A stretch of 37,746 nt of DNA, taken from NCBI GenBank assembly GCA_016763755.1, contig JAESTD010000298.1:1-37746 (forward strand), in the 5' to 3' direction. Each line of letters begins with the position of its first letter. Within the stretch, counting starts at the first letter, position 1. The stretch is from Mucilaginibacter sp. Lineage in GTDB: Bacteria; Bacteroidota; Bacteroidia; Sphingobacteriales; Sphingobacteriaceae. Shown in pieces: positions 7,687 to 33,162 of this stretch. The notes under the pieces were generated by a model. The model had not been told where the DNA came from. It made no database searches and was given only the letters and a program-made list of their open reading frames with translations. Made by a program: the position numbers and the translations under genes.

Positions 7687-8064
7687 ATGAAGAAGTACCT
7701 TATCATCCTGGCACTAACTGCCATTTTCTCATCCTGCAAAAAAGATAAACCTGTTAGCGCGTTAAATGGCACCTGGGAGCTTCACTCTATAGCCGGCCCT
7801 TTTTCCACAACAAGCGAGCCGGTAAAGCTCAGATATGTGATCACCAACGAGAACCAGTATGTGTTATCCGCTTTAGGCAACGAATTAGAACACGGTATCT
7901 TCATTTTAAATCTTGATAAACAGAGCGGTGAATATCGTTCCGGTAATATTGTATTTGGCCAGTCCTCTAAAGTTCAGGAATTTCATCTTAAAGCTGATAC
8001 CTTTATCATAGGCACTATCTCACCGGATTCGCCAAGCGCAAAATACGCAAGGATAAAGAAATAA
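7687..8064 (+). CDS. Small lipocalin-like lipoprotein, tandem paralog 1
   Basis: Lipobox signal MKKYLIILALTAIFSSC; NGTWEL near N-terminus; ...ADTFIIGTISPDSPSAKYARIKK C-terminus shared with following genes. Confidence 0.85.
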   Translation: MKKYLIILALTAIFSSCKKDKPVSALNGTWELHSIAGPFSTTSEPVKLRYVITNENQYVLSALGNELEHGIFILNLDKQSGEYRSGNIVFGQSSKVQEFHLKADTFIIGTISPDSPSAKYARIKK

Positions 8065-8152
8065 TTATCAACGCTTTATCGCTAAAAACCTCTACTTGGT
8101 TGTAGCATTTCCGCAGGTGATTGCGTAACTGTATAAACTAAACTTAAATACC

Positions 8153-8554
8153 ATGAAGAAATACCTTATCATCCTGGCATTGTTTGCCATTTTCTCATCT
8201 TGCAAAAAAGACAAACCGGTAACTCCAAGTATCACGGGCACTTGGGAACTTAAAACCATTTTAGCCAGCATTACCATCACTGTTGAGGACAAAGACAAAG
8301 AAACCTACGTATTTACAGCAGATAATCGTTACATAAAAACCGCGGCAGACAAAACACAGACGAGCGGAACTTTTGTCTTAAAACTCACCGGTGAACAAGA
8401 TGGTCGACGCTATGGCAATATTACATTTAGCGACACTCAGAAAACCGAGGTTATCACATTTAAAGGCGATGACCTGGTAATAGGTGATTCCAGCTTAGAC
8501 ATGCCAAGCTACCGGTATGCAAGGGTAAAGAAAGCTTCAATATTTGGCAACTAA
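8153..8554 (+). CDS. Small lipocalin-like lipoprotein, tandem paralog 2
   Basis: MKKYLIILALFAIFSSCKKDKP; GTWEL; YVFTADNRY; YRYARVKK. Confidence 0.85.
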   Translation: MKKYLIILALFAIFSSCKKDKPVTPSITGTWELKTILASITITVEDKDKETYVFTADNRYIKTAADKTQTSGTFVLKLTGEQDGRRYGNITFSDTQKTEVITFKGDDLVIGDSSLDMPSYRYARVKKASIFGN

Positions 8555-8593
8555 GTAATACCTGTTTACTATTTATCTAAAAATATGCTCAAT

Positions 8594-8977
8594 ATGAAAA
8601 AATCGTTATTGATAATTATAGCTGTTTTTGCTTTCGCTTCCTGCAAAAAAGATAAACCAACTACCCCTACCACTTATTGTTCATGGCGTCTAAACTCTGT
8701 AATTACTGATAATGGTAAATATGTTGTTGCGGAAAAAGATAAAGACTCTTATCAATTCAACACAAATAGCAAATATGTTAAGACTATGCCGGATAAGAAT
8801 ACAATACAGGGGAATTTCACTTTTACGCTTAGTGATGAATCCGAGGGTCGCCGTTTCGGTAGTATTACGTTCAGCAATCCGACAGACACACAACCGTTAA
8901 CTATTAAAGGTGATACGATCGTAACTGGCTCCTCATATATTGATGGGCCAAGATTTATTTATGCAAGAATAAAATAG
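8594..8977 (+). CDS. Small lipocalin-like lipoprotein, tandem paralog 3
   Basis: MKKSLLIIIAVFAFASCKKDKP; SWRL; YQFNTNSKY; GPRFIYARIK. Likely start 8594 rather than 8585. Confidence 0.83.
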   Translation: MKKSLLIIIAVFAFASCKKDKPTTPTTYCSWRLNSVITDNGKYVVAEKDKDSYQFNTNSKYVKTMPDKNTIQGNFTFTLSDESEGRRFGSITFSNPTDTQPLTIKGDTIVTGSSYIDGPRFIYARIK

Positions 8978-9001
8978 TATAATCAATTTTATCTACTGGT
9001 C

Positions 9002-9394
9002 ATGAAAAAGTATTTTCTCATCCTGGCAATTGCCTTCGTTGTTTTGGCATGCAAAAAAGATAAAACAGTGGTTAATACCAGCGTGTTTGGCAAATGGGAA
9101 TTGCGTGCTAAGTCCGGCGGCTTTACCGGCGCTACCACAAAATATGGAGCCGGTAACGGCGATATTTACCAGTTTAACAACGATAGTACCTATACGTGGA
9201 CTGAAAAAGACCGATTGTTAGGGAGCGGCAAATTCCACATCAGTATAACAGGGAAGGAAAAGAACATGCAATACGGTACTATCAAATTTGATGGTATTGA
9301 TGAAAATGAAATGTTTACGTTTAAGACAGATACAATATCCGTTGGTTCTATGATTGCTGAAGCAATGATATCAACCTACGTTAAGGTGAAATAA
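9002..9394 (+). CDS. Small lipocalin-like lipoprotein, tandem paralog 4
   Basis: MKKYFLILAIAFVVLACKKDK; GKWELR; IYQFNNDSTY; STYVKVK. Confidence 0.84.
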   Translation: MKKYFLILAIAFVVLACKKDKTVVNTSVFGKWELRAKSGGFTGATTKYGAGNGDIYQFNNDSTYTWTEKDRLLGSGKFHISITGKEKNMQYGTIKFDGIDENEMFTFKTDTISVGSMIAEAMISTYVKVK

Positions 9395-9422
9395 CTAAGG
9401 GCATAACATTTAATAACAAACC

Positions 9423-9818
9423 ATGAAAAACTATCTTATCATACTGGCTTTTGTATTAGCTTTTGCGGCTTGTAGTAAAAATTCGCCTAAACCCCAAAGC
9501 GGCAGCATTGTAGGTACCTGGGAACTAAGATTATTCACTACCGGCTGGACGATGCCTAAAAATTATAGTGCAGGTAACGGCAACAAATATATTTTTAAAG
9601 CCGATGGCAGTTACACCGAATATGCTGAGAACAAAGTAGAGAGCCAGGGTAAATATACATTAACGCCCACCAGTGATGATAACGGCACCAAATCTGGTAA
9701 GATCACTTTAACTAATCCGGATTATACAGATGTTTATACCATCAAAACCGATACATTTACTGTCGGCACTTCTTTAGCTGATGGCCCGAGCTGGCAATAC
9801 GTTAGGATAAAAAACTAA
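9423..9818 (+). CDS. Small lipocalin-like lipoprotein, tandem paralog 5
   Basis: MKNYLIILAFVLAFAACSKNSP; GTWELR; YIFKADGSY; DGPSWQYVRIKN. Confidence 0.84.
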   Translation: MKNYLIILAFVLAFAACSKNSPKPQSGSIVGTWELRLFTTGWTMPKNYSAGNGNKYIFKADGSYTEYAENKVESQGKYTLTPTSDDNGTKSGKITLTNPDYTDVYTIKTDTFTVGTSLADGPSWQYVRIKN

Positions 9819-14826: not shown

Positions 14827-15231
14827 CTAACTCTTTAAATACGGATAATAAACAAAGTTTGCCCCCTCCGGCACTATCACAAACAAGCACATAAACTCGT
14901 TTGGATTTTTATAACTGCTCAGGAAACGCTCTTTTAATTCAGCTTTGATAATACCGCGATCAATAAATTCCTCGATGGTTGAGGCGTGGATGCTCCACTC
15001 GGTATTCAGTTCGTTGCGGTCAAGGATCACTTCGCCCAACTTAACTTCATGCTGGTGGGCAACAAATATTGGCGTAGCTGATAGCCCTTCAAGCATAATA
15101 TCTATGGCAACTTCTTTTATCGAATCGTTAAAGAATTTAATATCGCGCTCCAGGCTTACCAGCGGACTTTGCTTTTGCTCTTTCTTCTCGCTGCTTCCTC
15201 TGTCCTGGTTAAAAAGTTCTTCGGTATTCAT
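14827..15231 (-). CDS. Conserved hypothetical protein
   Basis: 134 aa intact ORF with balanced composition, in a compact minus-strand gene run. Confidence 0.65.
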   Translation of the reverse strand: MNTEELFNQDRGSSEKKEQKQSPLVSLERDIKFFNDSIKEVAIDIMLEGLSATPIFVAHQHEVKLGEVILDRNELNTEWSIHASTIEEFIDRGIIKAELKERFLSSYKNPNEFMCLFVIVPEGANFVYYPYLKS

Positions 15232-15234
15232 ATC

Positions 15235-16260
15235 TCAGTCCTCAGTTTTTGGTGGTTGAGGTTTTGTGGTCTTTGGGTTAAAACGTGGTTTAAAGCCAAG
15301 TTTGGGTGTAGCTTCGGCAGCAGGCTCAGTTTCCTGCTCCTTTACTTTGATGTCCTCTGCTTTTTGCTCCGCAGGCACAACACTTTCCGCAGTTGTGTCT
15401 TCTAAGGGCTTATCCTCAGCAGCAGGGTGTTCTTTCTTTGGTGCCATCTTCGCTGCATTAAACCTTGGCTTAAAACCAGCAGGTTTTGATGCAGCAGGTG
15501 CTTCGGCTGGTGCGACGACTTCTGTCGGAGTTTCCTCTACAGCCTTTTCTTCAACAACAGGATCATCCTTCTTAGGCGCCATTTTAGCCGCGTTAAATCT
15601 CGGTTTAAAACCGGCAGGTTTTGGTGCAGATGCTTGAGTTGATGTTGGCGCTTCCGCAGGCTTTTCGTCTAACGGCTTACTTTCAGCAGCTGGCTCATCT
15701 GTTTTAGGCGTCGCCATCTTAGCAGCATTAAACCTTGGTTTGAAGCCCGCAGGTTTTGGCGCAGACGTTTCTACCGGTGCTTCAGTTGCAGGTTTATCTT
15801 CTGCAACAGGCTCATCCGTTTTCGGGGCCATTGCTTTGGCATTAAACCTTGGTTTAAACCCGGCAGGTTTCGGCGCGGCCGATGTTTCTGTATCTGTTGA
15901 TGCGGTGGTCTCTTTAGATTCTTCTGCTTTAACAACCGGTTCAGGTGCAGGCTTAGCGGCTGTTGCACCGGCTTTAAAACGTGGTTTAAAACCTACATTT
16001 GCAGTTGCCGATTCGGTTAGCGATTCTACAATGGTTTGCTCGGCAAGGCGGTTCTCTATGATCACCTTTTCCTCTTTTATTTCGGCAGCAAGGCGATACT
16101 GCAGGCGCAGCTTATTAAACCAGTATTTCTTTGTATGGTCGAAACTCTTTTCTCCCATAGCTTCGTAGTGCTCTTTAAATTCAGAGAACAAACCCGGCTG
16201 CCCCGATTGCAGGGCCATCAGATCTATCTTCTTCTTTTTAAAAAACTCTTCGAAAGTCAT
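15235..16260 (-). CDS. Hypothetical protein with an N-terminal helical domain and a disordered tail carrying six GFKPRF(N/K) motifs
   Basis: Likely start MTFEEFFKKKKIDL at 16260; repeats VGFKPRFKAG, AGFKPRFNAKAMAPK, AGFKPRFNAAKMATPK, AGFKPRFNAAKMAPKK (x2), LGFKPRFNPKTTK with acidic Ala/Pro/Glu-rich linkers. Confidence 0.8.
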   Translation of the reverse strand: MTFEEFFKKKKIDLMALQSGQPGLFSEFKEHYEAMGEKSFDHTKKYWFNKLRLQYRLAAEIKEEKVIIENRLAEQTIVESLTESATANVGFKPRFKAGATAAKPAPEPVVKAEESKETTASTDTETSAAPKPAGFKPRFNAKAMAPKTDEPVAEDKPATEAPVETSAPKPAGFKPRFNAAKMATPKTDEPAAESKPLDEKPAEAPTSTQASAPKPAGFKPRFNAAKMAPKKDDPVVEEKAVEETPTEVVAPAEAPAASKPAGFKPRFNAAKMAPKKEHPAAEDKPLEDTTAESVVPAEQKAEDIKVKEQETEPAAEATPKLGFKPRFNPKTTKPQPPKTED

Positions 16261-16341
16261 CTGTGTGATTTGAAAATTTGTTGATTGAAAATTTGAAGAT
16301 TGACAGGAATTTTCAAATTGCCAAATCTTTAAATCAATCAA

Positions 16342-16557: not shown

Positions 16558-16580
16558 GATGTTAGATTTGAAAATTACTT

Positions 16581-16642
16581 AATTTGAAAATTTGAAGGTG
16601 TAAGGAATTTTCAAATTATCACATCTTCAAATTTTCAAATTA
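16581..16642. repeat. AT-rich intergenic inverted repeat
   Basis: AATTTGAAAATTTGAAGGTGT (16581-16601) pairs with ACATCTTCAAATTTTCAAATT (from 16621); related sequence at about 16266-16335. Confidence 0.65.
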
Positions 16643-16647
16643 GAGAA

Positions 16648-17373
16648 TTACTCCGCCATATTATGATAAACCGCCTGTACATCATCGTCTTCCTCTAAGC
16701 GGTCAACAATTTTCAGTACATCTACGGCTTGTTCTTCGGTAACTGCGGTGGTTGACAGCGGGATACGCTCCAGCTTGGCTGATTTTACTTCGATGCCCAT
16801 CTCCTCTAAAGTTTTCTGCATTTTACCGAAATCTTCAAAAGCGGTATGGATAACGGCTACATCGTTTCCTTCTTCATCGGCCTCCACAAAAAGGTCTTCC
16901 AAACCGGCGTCTATCAATTCAAACTCCAGTTCTTCCAGATCGCGCTCTCCGGGATCAAATCTGAAAACAGATTTGCGTGCGAAAACGAAATCAAGTGAGC
17001 CGGTTTTACCGAGCGTACCGCCATATTTTGTAAAATAACTGCGCACGTTAGCAACCGTACGGTTTGTATTATCAGTAGCGGTCTCTACCAATATAGCTAC
17101 GCCATGCTGTGCGTAACCCTCGTAAACCAACTCATCGTAATCTTTCTCATCACGGCTTGAGGCACGTTTGATAGCGGCCTCAACTCTGTCTTTAGGCATG
17201 TTAACCGCCTTGGCATTCTGCACAGCAGTACGTAGGCGCGAGTTGGTGTTGGGGTCGCCGCCACCAGCTTTAACAGCCATTACTATCTCCTTACCCAAAC
17301 GGGTAAACTGCACCGCCATTTTGGCCCAGCGCTTAAATTTTCTCTCTTTCCGGAATTCGAATGCTCTTCCCAT
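16648..17373 (-). CDS. yebC: YebC/PmpR family regulator (TACO1 family)
   Basis: MGRAFEFRKERKFKRWAKMAVQFTRLGKEIVMAVKAGGGDPNTNSRLRTAVQNAKAVNMPKDRVEAAIKRA; YEGYAQHGVAILVETATDNTNRTVANVR. Confidence 0.95.
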   Translation of the reverse strand: MGRAFEFRKERKFKRWAKMAVQFTRLGKEIVMAVKAGGGDPNTNSRLRTAVQNAKAVNMPKDRVEAAIKRASSRDEKDYDELVYEGYAQHGVAILVETATDNTNRTVANVRSYFTKYGGTLGKTGSLDFVFARKSVFRFDPGERDLEELEFELIDAGLEDLFVEADEEGNDVAVIHTAFEDFGKMQKTLEEMGIEVKSAKLERIPLSTTAVTEEQAVDVLKIVDRLEEDDDVQAVYHNMAE

Positions 17374-17434: not shown

Positions 17435-18385
17435 TTAGATAATCGTTTTCAGGTTGGTTAGCATATCTTCCGTTATCTTTGGCAGATTATACTCCAGTTG
17501 CCAACCCCAATCCTGTTGTGCCTGGCTGTCATCAATAGATTTTGGCCAGCTATCGGCAATAACCTGGCGTGAGTCGTTTTCGGCATAGCTCATCTCAAAC
17601 TCAGGCATTAGCTTTTTAATTTCTGAAGCTAATTGCTCAGGCGTAAAACTTACACCTGCCAAATTATAGCTTGAGCGGATGGTAATATTCTCTACCGGCG
17701 CATCCATCAAACTTAATGTAGCGCGAATGGCATCATCCATGTACATCATCGGCAATGCAGTTTGTGCCGATAAGAAGCCTTGATATTTACCATGTTTTAA
17801 TGCCTCGTGAAAAATATGCACAGCATAATCTGTAGTGCCGCCCCCCGGATTTGCTCTCCAGCCTATTAAACCAGGGTAACGCAGGCTGCGTACATCCAAT
17901 CCGTATTTTTCGAAATAGTACTCGCACCAGCGTTCGCCGGCCAATTTACTAAAACCATAAACTGTGTTAGGATCCATCACACAATACTGCGGGGTATTAT
18001 GCTGTGGCGAGTGCGGGCCGAATACCGCTATCGAGCTTGGCCAAAAAACTTTCTGCACTTTAAATTCAACAGCAAAATCCAACACATGTAAAAGCCCTGT
18101 CATGTTCAAATCCCAGGCCATTTTGGGTTTTTGCTCGCCTACGGCTGATAAGATGGCTGCCAACAGGTAAACCTGTGTTGGACGATGTTTATCAAAAAGG
18201 TGACGCAAGTTTTCTTTATCCATCACGTTTGCATATTCAAACGGACCGGTATTGCGGAGAGCGTAGTTTGGGCTATTTATATCTGATGCAATTACATTTT
18301 CTGCACCATGAATTTTTCTTAATGCGGCTACCAGTTCGGTACCAATTTGACCATTGGAGCCGATCACGAATATCTTTTCAGTCAT
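17435..18385 (-). CDS. NAD-dependent epimerase/dehydratase, L-threonine 3-dehydrogenase-like SDR
   Basis: IFVIGSNGQIGTELVAALRKIHG, VYLLAAILSAVGE, YGFSKLAGERWCEYYFEKYGLDVRSLRYPGLIG. Confidence 0.87.
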   Translation of the reverse strand: MTEKIFVIGSNGQIGTELVAALRKIHGAENVIASDINSPNYALRNTGPFEYANVMDKENLRHLFDKHRPTQVYLLAAILSAVGEQKPKMAWDLNMTGLLHVLDFAVEFKVQKVFWPSSIAVFGPHSPQHNTPQYCVMDPNTVYGFSKLAGERWCEYYFEKYGLDVRSLRYPGLIGWRANPGGGTTDYAVHIFHEALKHGKYQGFLSAQTALPMMYMDDAIRATLSLMDAPVENITIRSSYNLAGVSFTPEQLASEIKKLMPEFEMSYAENDSRQVIADSWPKSIDDSQAQQDWGWQLEYNLPKITEDMLTNLKTII

Positions 18386-22101: not shown

Positions 22102-23528
22102 TTAGGACATTTTTAATTTCTTTTGGATATCGGCAACGTAGCCTTTGAATTTTTTATCGGTATCAATTAAGTCTTCAACCGTTTGGCAGGCATAAATAAC
22201 CGTAGAGTGGTCGCGTCCGCCAAAGAAGTGACCAATTGATTTTAGTGAGCTTTTGGTATGTGCCTTTGCCAGGTACATTGATATCTGACGGGCCTGAACG
22301 ATCTCACGTTTGCGGGTCTGAGATTTAACCATCTCGATAGGTACCTCAAAGTACTCGCAAACCAGGCTCTGGATGTACTCCATTGAAATTTCTTTGGCAG
22401 AATTCTTAACAAAATTCTTCAGCATCTGCTTAGCCAGGTTCAGGTCGATCTCTTTACGGTTTAGGGTTGATTGTGCCAATAGTGATACCATAGCACCTTC
22501 AAGTTCACGTACGTTGTTGTCAATATTATGGGCAACGTATTCTACCACTTCATGAGATAGATCGATACCATCCTGGTAGATCTTGTTCTTCAGGATAGCC
22601 ATACGGGTTTCCAGGTCAGGTACCTGCAGATCAGCAGATAAACCCCATTTGAAACGTGATAATAAACGCTCTTCTAAACCTGCCAGATCCTTAGGGGCTT
22701 TATCTGATGTGATGATCAGTTGTTTGCCACTTTGGTGCAGGTGGTTAAATATGTGGAAGAAGAAATCCTGTGTTTTCTCTTTACCTGCAAAGTTGTGTAC
22801 GTCATCCATGATGAGTACATCTATCGCCTGGTAAAAATTCACAAAATCATTGATGTTATTGTGCTTAAGTGCGTCAACAAACTGTTGTGTAAATTTTTCG
22901 CAGCTTACATATAAAACCAGTTTATCCGGTAGGGTGCGTTTAATCTCGTTACCAATGGCTTGTGCCAGGTGGGTTTTACCTAAACCAACGCCACCATATA
23001 TCATTAGCGGATTAAAAGAGGTACCACCGGGTTTAGCAGCAACAGCATAACCTGCAGAACGTGCCAAGCGGTTGCAATCGCCCTCAACAAAGTTTTCGAA
23101 GGTGTAATTGCGATTAAGCTGAGGGTCAACATTCAGCTTCTTAAGGCCCGGTATTACAAACGGGTTCTTAATATCTTTGTTTATCGAAATAGGTATCGGC
23201 ATAGACTGATTCTTTGCTTCGGCACCATTTCCATTTGAGGGCATGTTAGTAGTGTAAGGCTTTGGCGATGACGACTGTTCTACAACAATGTTATATTCCA
23301 GTCTGCCTTCGTCTCCCAGTTGCTTTTTTATGGTTTTGCGCAACAGGCCTACATAATGCTCCTCAAGCCATTCATAAAAGAATAACTTGGTACCTGTATA
23401 GTTAGAACGCTACCTTCCATCCGCAAAGCTTTAATTGGCTCAAACCAGGTTTTAAAGCTTTGTGCCGGTATGTTATCTTTGATGATCTGAAGGCAACTAT
23501 TCCAAACGTTAGTACAAGTTTTTTCCAT
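22102..23528 (-). CDS. dnaA: Chromosomal replication initiator DnaA, reading frame broken by an apparent 1-nt deletion
   Basis: C-terminal part: PLMIYGGVGLGKTHLAQAIGNEIK, VLIMDDVHNFAGKEKTQDFFFHIFNHL, GGRDHSTVIYACQTVEDLI. N-terminal part MEKTCTNVWNSCLQIIKDNIPAQSFKTWFEPIKAL is in another frame; adding one T at 23376-23379 joins them as VPSYSFYEWLEEHYVGLLRKTIKKQLG. Confidence 0.93.
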
Positions 23529-23863
23529 ATAAAGTATCAGTAATTTCTTGATTTCCAGTCTCCCAACCAGTGAGCTTTTGGGCTCATTACGGAACATCGA
23601 ATATTCAAAAAAAGGCGGATTAAAAAATTAAAATTGAACTTTTTTCAGAAATATATTTTTTCAAAATAATGCCTTTTTTGTAGCGTAAATACATATTTAA
23701 TATTATATTTCGCGAGTAGCAGCGCAAAAATGCCCTCTACTTTCTCCTATCGCATTTTTACGAGTTTGAACAACAATTGGGTGCAAAAAGTTGCGTATTT
23801 TTTAATGTAAAATTCGTAAATAACAACTCCCGGCAATTATCCTAATAAGTAATATTTTTCTTT

Positions 23864-25411
23864 CTAATATTCTCCAAAAACAAGGCGCAATTCGTCGGCT
23901 ATTTCTCCAAGGGTAGCATAGGCTTCAACAGCTGCCAAAATATACGGCATCAAATTTTCGGGGCCCTTTGCAGCAACACTTAGATTTTGTAAAGCTGTTT
24001 TAACGGCACTATTATCGCGCTCGTTTTTCAAATCATTCAGCTTTTGAGTTTGCTGTACGCGGATAGAATCATCAATACGGAAAACAGGTGGATTCACCTC
24101 TTCCTGCTGGGTAAATTTATTAACACCAACCAATACACGGTCGCCTGTTTCGATATCATTCTGGTATTCGTAAGGGGCAGCGGCTATTTCTTGTTACAGA
24201 TAATCCTGCTCAATCGCTTTAACAGATCCGCCCATGGCGTCAATCTTTTCTATATATATATAAGCAGCGGCTTCCAATTCATTGGTGAGTGCTTCTACAA
24301 AATACGAGCCAGCCAAGGGGTCAACCGTGTCGGTAACACCACTTTCAAAAGCAATAATTTGCTGTGTACGCAGGGCAATTTTGGCAGCGGCCTCAGTTGG
24401 TAACGACAAGGCCTCGTCATAGCCATTAGTATGTAAAGATTGCGTACCGCCCAACACTGCAGCCAACGCCTGATTACTCACCCTTACAATGTTATTCATG
24501 GGCTGCTGGGCTGTAAGCGTAGAGCCGCCGGTTTGCGTATGGAAACGCAATTTCTGCGCCCCCGGATCAGTGGCACCTAATTCTTTGGTAATGTTAGCCC
24601 ACATCCTGCGTGCAGCCCTAAATTTGGCTATCTCTTCAAAAAAGTTGTTATGGCAGTTAAAAAAGAACGACAAGCGTTTGGCAAATACATTAATATCCAA
24701 ACCTTTCTCGAGCGCCGCCTTCAGGTAAGTTTTACCGTTAGCAAGCGTAAAAGCCAACTCCTGCACGGCAGTAGATCCTGCCTCACGGATGTGATAGCCT
24801 GATATGGAAATCGTATTCCATTTGGGTACTTCTTTGCTACAGTATTCAAATATATCAGTGATCAACCGCATGGACGGCTCCGGCGGATAGATGTAGGTTC
24901 CGCGTGCCGCGTATTCCTTTAATATATCGTTTTGGATAGTACCCGAGATCTGTTTAATATCTGCTCCCTGCTTTTTTGCCAGGGCGATGTACATACATAA
25001 TAATATAGATGCCGTTGCATTAATGGTCATGGATGTAGTGATATCCTTTAATTGAATACCATCAAACAATGTCTCAATATCTTTTAACGAATCTATCGCC
25101 ACCCCTACTTTGCCTACTTCGCCTTCTGCAAGGTCGTGGTCGCTGTCGTAACCTATCTGGGTGGGCAGGTCAAACGCTACTGAAAGCCCCATCGTACCCT
25201 GACTAAGCAGGTAATGGTAGCGTTTATTCGATTCCTCGGCAGTTGAGAACCCGGCATATTGGCGCATTGTCCACGGCCTGCCTCGATACATATCTTTCTG
25301 GATGCCCCGCGTATACGGGAACTGCCCGGGCAGTTCGCTCATAGCCGATGGCTGGGTGTAAACTTCATCGAACTTTATCCCAGATGTTGTAGTAAATTTC
25401 TTATCGGCCAT
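23864..25411 (-). CDS. Methylmalonyl-CoA mutase family protein (catalytic TIM-barrel subunit), interrupted by an in-frame TAA
   Basis: [67 protein letters not shown] at 24194-24196 followed in the same frame by [38 protein letters not shown]; total 515 codons plus stop. Confidence 0.92.
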
Positions 25412-31789: not shown

Positions 31790-33099
31790 TTAGCCTATAA
31801 TTTTACGTCCGATACTGTTGTAGTAGAAACCAAGATCAACCATTTTTTGCAAGTCGTAAAGGTTACGACCGTCAAATATCACTTTACTTGGCAACAGATC
31901 AACCAACCTGTCAAAATCAGGTGTACGGAATACCGACCATTCTGTTACAATCAACAGGGCATCAGCACTTGTTAATGCTTCATATTGGTCTTCGGCATAT
32001 TTAATTTTATCGCCAAGCAGGTTTTTCACATTGCTCATACCTTCAGGGTCATAAACGGTGATGGTAGCGCCTGCGGCAAGCAATTCATCTATAATATATA
32101 AAGCCGGTGCTTCGCGAATGTCGTCGGTTTCCGGTTTAAAGGCCAGGCCCCACATGGCGAAGTGTTTACCGCTAAGCTCATTTTTATAGTATTTTTTCAG
32201 CTTTTGCACCAACACTTTCTTTTGGATCTCGTTAACTTTCATTACCGAATTGAGGATCGCAAACTCGTACTGGTTTTCTTGTGATGATTTAGCTAAAGCC
32301 TGCACATCCTTAGGGAAACAGCTACCGCCATAACCGATACCCGAGAACAGGAAGCGGTTACCGATACGATTATCTGAACCAATACCACGGCGTACCATGT
32401 CTACATCGGCACCAACCAGTTCGCACAGGTTAGCGATCTCGTTCATGAAAGATATTTTGGTAGCCAGGAAAGAGTTAGCGGCGTATTTGGTTAGCTCAGA
32501 TGAACGCTCGTCCATAAAAATAACCGGGTTACCCTGGCGCACATAAGGTGCATAAAGCTCGCCCATTAATTTGCGTGCACGTTCGTCGGTAGTACCAACT
32601 ACCACGCGGTCGGGCTTCATAAAGTCATCAACGGCAACACCTTCACGTAAAAATTCAGGGTTTGATACCACTGCACACTCAATGCTGGTGTTTTCTTTCA
32701 TTACCGCTTTTACCTTATCAGCAGTACCTACCGGCACAGTTGATTTGGTAACGATAACCTTATAATCGGTTACCAATTTGGCTATATCTTTAGCGGCACC
32801 AAGCACGTAGCTCAGGTCCGCAGAGCCATCACCACCCGGAGGGGTTGGCAAAGCAAGGAAAATGATCTCGGCATCAGCAATAGCATCAGCCAAAACGCTG
32901 GTAAACAGCAAACGTTTCTGGCTAATGTTTCGATGGAAAAGTAACTCAAGCCCAGGTTCGTAAATTGGCACTTTACCTTCTTGCATCATTTAACTTTTTG
33001 TTCGTTAATATCAACGCAAGTAACCTGGTTACCGGTCTCAGCTAAACACGTTCCGGTTACAAGGCCTACGTAGCCCGTACCTACTACAGCAATTTTCAT
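31790..33099 (-). CDS. ugd: UDP-glucose 6-dehydrogenase, N-terminus separated by an apparent 1-nt deletion
   Basis: Start at 33099 gives [37 protein letters not shown] then TGA; the remainder [18 protein letters not shown]... is in the next frame; [17 protein letters not shown] catalytic Cys motif present. Confidence 0.93.
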
Positions 33100-33162
33100 A
33101 GCTTATGATTTGTTATTTATTACTTTTATACCCGACGAAGATAATACTATTACCATTAAAAA

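Follow-up and report, generated by a model that had tools for sequence, protein, structure and literature searches.

A conserved helical domain followed by a predicted disordered array of GFKPRF-type motifs in Mucilaginibacter and other Bacteroidota

The stretch of Mucilaginibacter DNA analyzed here, hereafter called the window (37,746 nucleotides in all), carries on its minus strand a gene for a protein of 341 residues, P0001, which looks cytosolic and has no apparent signal peptide. Among named organisms, species of Mucilaginibacter are the closest to this genome. The initial annotation had placed this gene correctly at 15235-16260, and only the strand needed adding: the ATG lies at 16260 and the stop codon at 15235-15237, with the start set by orthologs that begin with M[T/L/V]FEEF. 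The product has a helical N-terminal domain, hereafter the head (residues 1-60; 16081-16260, minus strand), which is defined by alignment, AlphaFold2 and genome surveys, followed by a tail rich in Ala, Pro, Lys and Glu (residues 61-341; 15238-16080, minus strand), characterized by its pLDDT values and charges. On the same strand lie two conserved neighbours, namely yebC upstream, which encodes a member of the TACO1-like translation factor family (16648-17373; NCBIfam NF009044/TIGR01033 and synteny), and tdh, which encodes an SDR-type L-threonine 3-dehydrogenase (17435-18385; matched to solved L-threonine dehydrogenases, e.g. 2yy7 with E = 4e-127). The gene directly downstream, after a gap of 3 bases, encodes a protein of 134 residues without Pfam match (14827-15231, minus strand) and occupies this position in just a few of the named Mucilaginibacter loci (L007, L008, L011, L013 and L022). 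An AT-rich intergenic element, TTTGAAAATTTGAAGA, occurs in the two gaps that flank a DUF2442 gene (16262-16340 and 16575-16645), with four copies, one of them inverted, against 0.1 expected by chance.

The six copies of GFKPRF(N/K) first counted by eye are indeed present in the tail, all encoded on the minus strand. The next residue is K in motif 1 (residues 90-95; 15976-15993) and N in the other five: motif 2 (residues 134-139; 15844-15861), motif 3 (172-177; 15730-15747), motif 4 (217-222; 15595-15612), motif 5 (262-267; 15460-15477) and motif 6 (322-327; 15280-15297), the last being near the C-terminus; the phenylalanine after the glycine falls at residues 91, 135, 173, 218, 263 and 323. 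The AKxMAPKK-like stretch that had been described after four of the copies follows the four inner ones, in the forms AKAMAPK, AAKMATPK, AAKMAPKK and AAKMAPKK. Peptides representing the motif are GFKPRFNAAKMAPKK and KPAGFKPRFNAAKMAPKK. A DNA pattern for GFKPRF[NK] has six matches in the whole 4.97-Mb assembly of this organism, all of them in the gene for the 341-residue protein, and the reversed control pattern has none in the same assembly; a looser pattern of the [FY]xP[RK]F type finds five extra scattered matches there versus five for its control, which is the level of chance.

The charged N-terminal region of the initial annotation exists, but it is a conserved folded domain lying outside the disordered region, and its folding had been overlooked. 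AlphaFold2 models residues 1-60 with a mean pLDDT of 84.3 (from 50 aligned sequences) and predicts helices at residues 3-9, 14-20, 22-35, 37-43 and 45-54. In the alignment of the head, N49 and R52 are invariant, with F3, K10, I12, F40, K44 and K45 nearly so; the domain is conserved across several orders of Bacteroidia according to alignment and genome surveys, and its conservation is still strong in relatives that possess the head only. No significant match to the head was found in Pfam, NCBIfam, PHROGs, PADLOC, PDB sequences, PDB folds or viral folds. An alignment of the head profile with part of a S30EA-type ribosomal-factor chain (E = 0.74) was rejected, and phrog_37007, of unknown function, gives a weak match (E = 1e-3) that is confined to 31 residues of the repeat tail. 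The earlier remark that no described family could be recognized thus holds against Pfam, NCBIfam, PHROG, PADLOC and solved structures, no known structural repeat family matches the array in profile and fold searches, and none of the literature searched contains the motif strings. Both the family and the motif appear to be undescribed; the general kind, that is, tandem linear motifs in disordered linkers, is already known.

The full-length AlphaFold2 model (mean pLDDT 53.6, pTM 0.26) keeps the head and assigns low confidence to the tail, with pLDDT below 60 throughout and mostly below 50, from which the tail is predicted to be disordered, as had been proposed for this acidic, Ala/Pro-rich region. 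In the window protein the motif segments have a net charge of +31 and the linkers of -30. The same alternation of basic motif segments and acidic linkers is found in 87 of 87 related proteins with at least three motifs.

The motif itself is under strong constraint. In 11 ortholog comparisons, some of which have a sequence in common, the ratio of replacement to silent changes is 4/143 in motif codons (a mildly biased figure, given that a column counted as motif whenever the first member of the pair had the motif there), 41/150 in the head and 637/595 in the linkers. Purifying selection is therefore stronger on the motif than on the folded domain. Although the search pattern did not cover the residue preceding the motif, 79% of 460 motifs have G there and 17% have A. 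Pairwise codon differences among the six copies of the window gene amount to 37 silent and no replacement changes, and Tandem Repeats Finder does not call these copies as a DNA tandem array; consequently, they look old and held by selection. Relatives possess between 0 and 13 motifs; the median spacing is 43 residues (34-61 residues at the 5th-95th percentile), and in orthologs a median of 18 residues separates the last motif from the end of the protein. This conserved motif, with its variable copy number and regular spacing, supports the earlier suggestion of a multivalent array of short linear motifs. The flanks of inner repeats are more similar within a protein (identity 0.62) than between proteins (0.26), which indicates that the arrays are renewed lineage by lineage. 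A very young expansion of the GFKPRF-type array is seen in the ortholog L099 (4354-5928), where a unit of 129 bp is repeated in 12.3 copies with 97% matches, and the array contains 13 motifs with identical codons.

The head gene was found in 34 of the 60 relatives sampled, all of these within the genus, in 93 of 121 genomes of the family (presumably Sphingobacteriaceae; we infer the order and family names of the surveyed genomes) and in 149 of 251 genomes of the window's order. It is rare in the other Bacteroidia sampled (43 of 396 genomes of the class), and is present in a second, Cytophagales-like order in 149 of 242 genomes (about 60%) and 72 of 106 genera. A large genus of the window's family, g37, has no head gene, though it possesses yebC and tdh, and the region after its yebC contains no diverged homolog. 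The small genomes of g34 (about 2 Mb) encode a head of 58-59 residues without tail.

Head homologs elsewhere have different tails that are often tandem as well, with RPVFKRP and RPVIKRP in family f29, RPVFKKP and RPVIKPK in f135, KPVIRPVIKK in f123, KPIFKRP in f136, and KPIMRK and LKRPIMK in f2; some homologs possess just one copy, close to the C-terminus (KPVFKRPS, KKPVMR or YKPLFRKK). These tails share a [KR]-P-x-hydrophobic-[KR] core with GFKPRF[N/K], so that, besides the family-defining folded domain, the initial annotation missed that its motif is one form of a broader core. When each tail is shuffled within its own protein, the core is enriched about 10-40 times in seven families, with 260 matches versus 11.8 in the window family (f1), 93 versus 3.3 in f135, 42 versus 1.3 in f29, 19 versus 1.9 in f2, 13 versus 0.4 in f123, 12 versus 0.3 in f136 and 12 versus 0.7 in f15, counts that are not independent within one protein because the repeats are duplicated. 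For the reversed core, the counts in every family fall inside the range given by its own shuffles. The exact form of the core is not settled, since the alternative [KR]P-hydrophobic-x-[KR] scores about equally in f29, f123, f135 and f136, where the middle residue is also hydrophobic, and other orderings score as high in f2, for example [KR]xP-hydrophobic-[KR] with 21 matches. The KPKIPG repeats of f133 do not fit the core. The mean net charge of the tail per residue is -0.014 in f1, near zero in f29 and about +0.1 in f2, f133 and f135.

We consider that the best explanation, with a probability of about 0.5, is a soluble multivalent scaffold or adaptor that holds one target with its head and, with the motifs of its tail, several copies of another, putative partner. 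The helical head of about 60 residues would dock on its target, which is probably the ancestral core function given that many relatives consist of the head only, and the disordered tail would present up to thirteen motif copies, about 43 residues apart in the window family, each to be captured by one copy of a conserved putative partner, probably one of the common, conserved constituents of the cell. Acidic linkers offset the basic motifs, which would keep the tail extended and less prone to non-specific sticking, and tandem duplication would raise or lower the copy number and thereby tune valency lineage by lineage. The constraint on exact residues favours a specific groove over generic charge; we infer that the motif recognizes a specific surface of some protein or ribonucleoprotein, with clustering or tethering as the presumed effect. 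Several observations count against this scaffold: no other protein of the same assembly carries the motif above chance, the net basic tails of f135 and f2 would also suit a generic polyanion binder, the f133 repeats lie outside the core and alternative cores score about as well in several families. Moreover, tail-less relatives are common and the gene is absent from g37 and some others, so the array is dispensable. If correct, the scaffold would represent a new conserved and previously undescribed domain family of Bacteroidota, as well as a bacterial case in which relatives naturally differ in motif copy number, from 0 to 13, with the motif residues frozen, thus offering a natural series to test how scaffolding or condensation in bacteria depends on valency. 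More tentatively, [KR]-P-x-hydrophobic-[KR] might be an undescribed bacterial linear motif for one receptor conserved across Bacteroidota, amplified repeatedly by independent lineages behind the same head to give a tunable scaffold or condensate in which valency itself evolves.

The main rival of the scaffold, owing to the conserved basic residues of the head (K10, K44, K45 and R52, invariant or nearly so) and the net basic tails of f2 and f135, is binding to RNA or the ribosome, in which the basic-aromatic-proline motifs and the basic head would contact rRNA or other RNA and tether or condense ribonucleoprotein. Genomic context lends it something, as the translation-related yebC adjoins the gene in the window family and obg does so in f2, and YebC reportedly acts on ribosomes (PMC12234827, PMC11990639). 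The neighbours elsewhere, however, vary widely, including tdh and kbl, a ClC channel, HtrA, an M50 protein, diadenylate cyclase and FabH (a neighbour of 599 residues in f135, considered as the translation factor LepA, was rejected as such and is a ClC channel). A link to YebC through polyproline translation was likewise rejected: YebC is present in 15 of 15 genomes checked, including those without the head gene, and the motifs contain single prolines, so that no special link with YebC is claimed. Given also that the tails of f1 and f29 have almost no net charge, that exact residues rather than charge alone are constrained and that a synthetic two-motif query matched yeast ribosomal uS19 without significance (E = 0.06-0.2, rejected as an effect of composition), we regard RNA or ribosome binding as rather unlikely. 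The same context suggests a scaffold for threonine catabolism that would cluster Tdh and Kbl and pass on the unstable 2-amino-3-ketobutyrate. The order in the window family is, with variations, tdh - yebC - head gene, with tdh on the same strand and yebC often in between, whereas the second order has, in many of its families, a head gene flanked by a divergent tdh and a co-directional kbl; tdh hence adjoins the head gene in both orders, though the arrangement differs, and kbl does so in one, and the identities of both Tdh and Kbl (NCBIfam TIGR01822) were checked. Yet Tdh (threshold E <= 1e-60) does not co-occur with the domain, being present in 29 of 40 genomes with it and 34 of 40 without it among 80 genomes; G1007 and G1020 have long motif tails and lack such a Tdh, g37 keeps tdh-yebC without the domain and the neighbours in f2 are obg and M16 peptidases instead. 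A role in threonine catabolism is accordingly improbable, and the variable neighbours together with the failed co-occurrence of Tdh mean that context gives no firm function.

Equally doubtful is that the motifs bind the head of their own protein, either in cis for autoinhibition or in trans for self-association into a condensate. Head and motif belong to a single chain, and the assembly of this organism yielded no further protein with the motif that stood out, but the head is strongly conserved even in relatives that have nothing else, and the scores of the full-length model contain no confident docking signal (pLDDT of the motifs about 50-59, with the low pTM of 0.26). It is highly improbable that the tail is a neutral or weakly constrained repeat expanded by slippage of K/P/E-rich sequence, or else a generic glue for membrane or nucleoid, even if fresh expansions such as that of L099 (129 bp x 12.3) do occur and small genomes lack tails. 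The linkers drift and the motif codons do not, replacement changes being nearly absent from the latter, and unrelated repeat arrays have the [KR]Px-hydrophobic-[KR] core in common.

The multivalent scaffold that we favour can be compared with known systems. EPYC1 and the N-terminal repeats of CsoS2 present tandem Rubisco-binding motifs in disordered linkers and thus resemble our protein as disordered multivalent chains with several regularly spaced short motifs and variable linkers; the likeness is one of architecture, and here the motif is of the [KR]Px-hydrophobic-[KR] type and follows a folded head that is shared with motif-less relatives. AlgP, with its KPAA repeats, and histone H1-like bacterial proteins have Lys/Pro-rich tandem tails and share with the window family a low-complexity K/P/A composition with repeats in variable number. 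In contrast to these, the tail of the window family is near neutral, with basic motifs alternating with acidic linkers and specific aromatic residues frozen; the strong net positive charge of H1-like or AlgP-like tails was not found, the mean per residue being -0.014 in f1 and about +0.1 in f2, f133 and f135. Proline-rich antimicrobial peptides of the apidaecin and oncocin types, which are secreted inhibitors of the ribosome tunnel, contain K/R-P-hydrophobic sequences that recall the short pattern of K/R, Pro and hydrophobic residues found here, but our motifs are repeated in tandem between acidic linkers, and the protein that contains them has no apparent signal peptide. Another comparison is offered by the Rho protein of Bacteroides, in which short autoinhibitory sequences within a disordered region are reported to control phase separation (PMC13269538). 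Both are Bacteroidota proteins with short motifs in a disordered region, those of Rho governing condensation according to that report; unlike Rho, a known termination factor, the window protein has no recognized enzyme domain.

Elsewhere in the window, dnaA (22102-23597) is interrupted near 23380 by what looks like a frameshift, probably an error of sequencing or assembly in this fragmented assembly. The reading frame of a methylmalonyl-CoA-mutase-like gene (23864-25411) contains an internal stop codon, and a UDP-glucose-dehydrogenase-like gene (31790-33100) is frameshifted near its start, both being named by sequence resemblance; that three housekeeping genes are disrupted within 37 kb suggests errors in the sequence. 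Finally, the region 7687-9818 contains five tandem paralogous genes for small lipoprotein-like proteins of about 125-133 residues, which have a hydrophobic start followed by Cys and a CKKDKP-like sequence.
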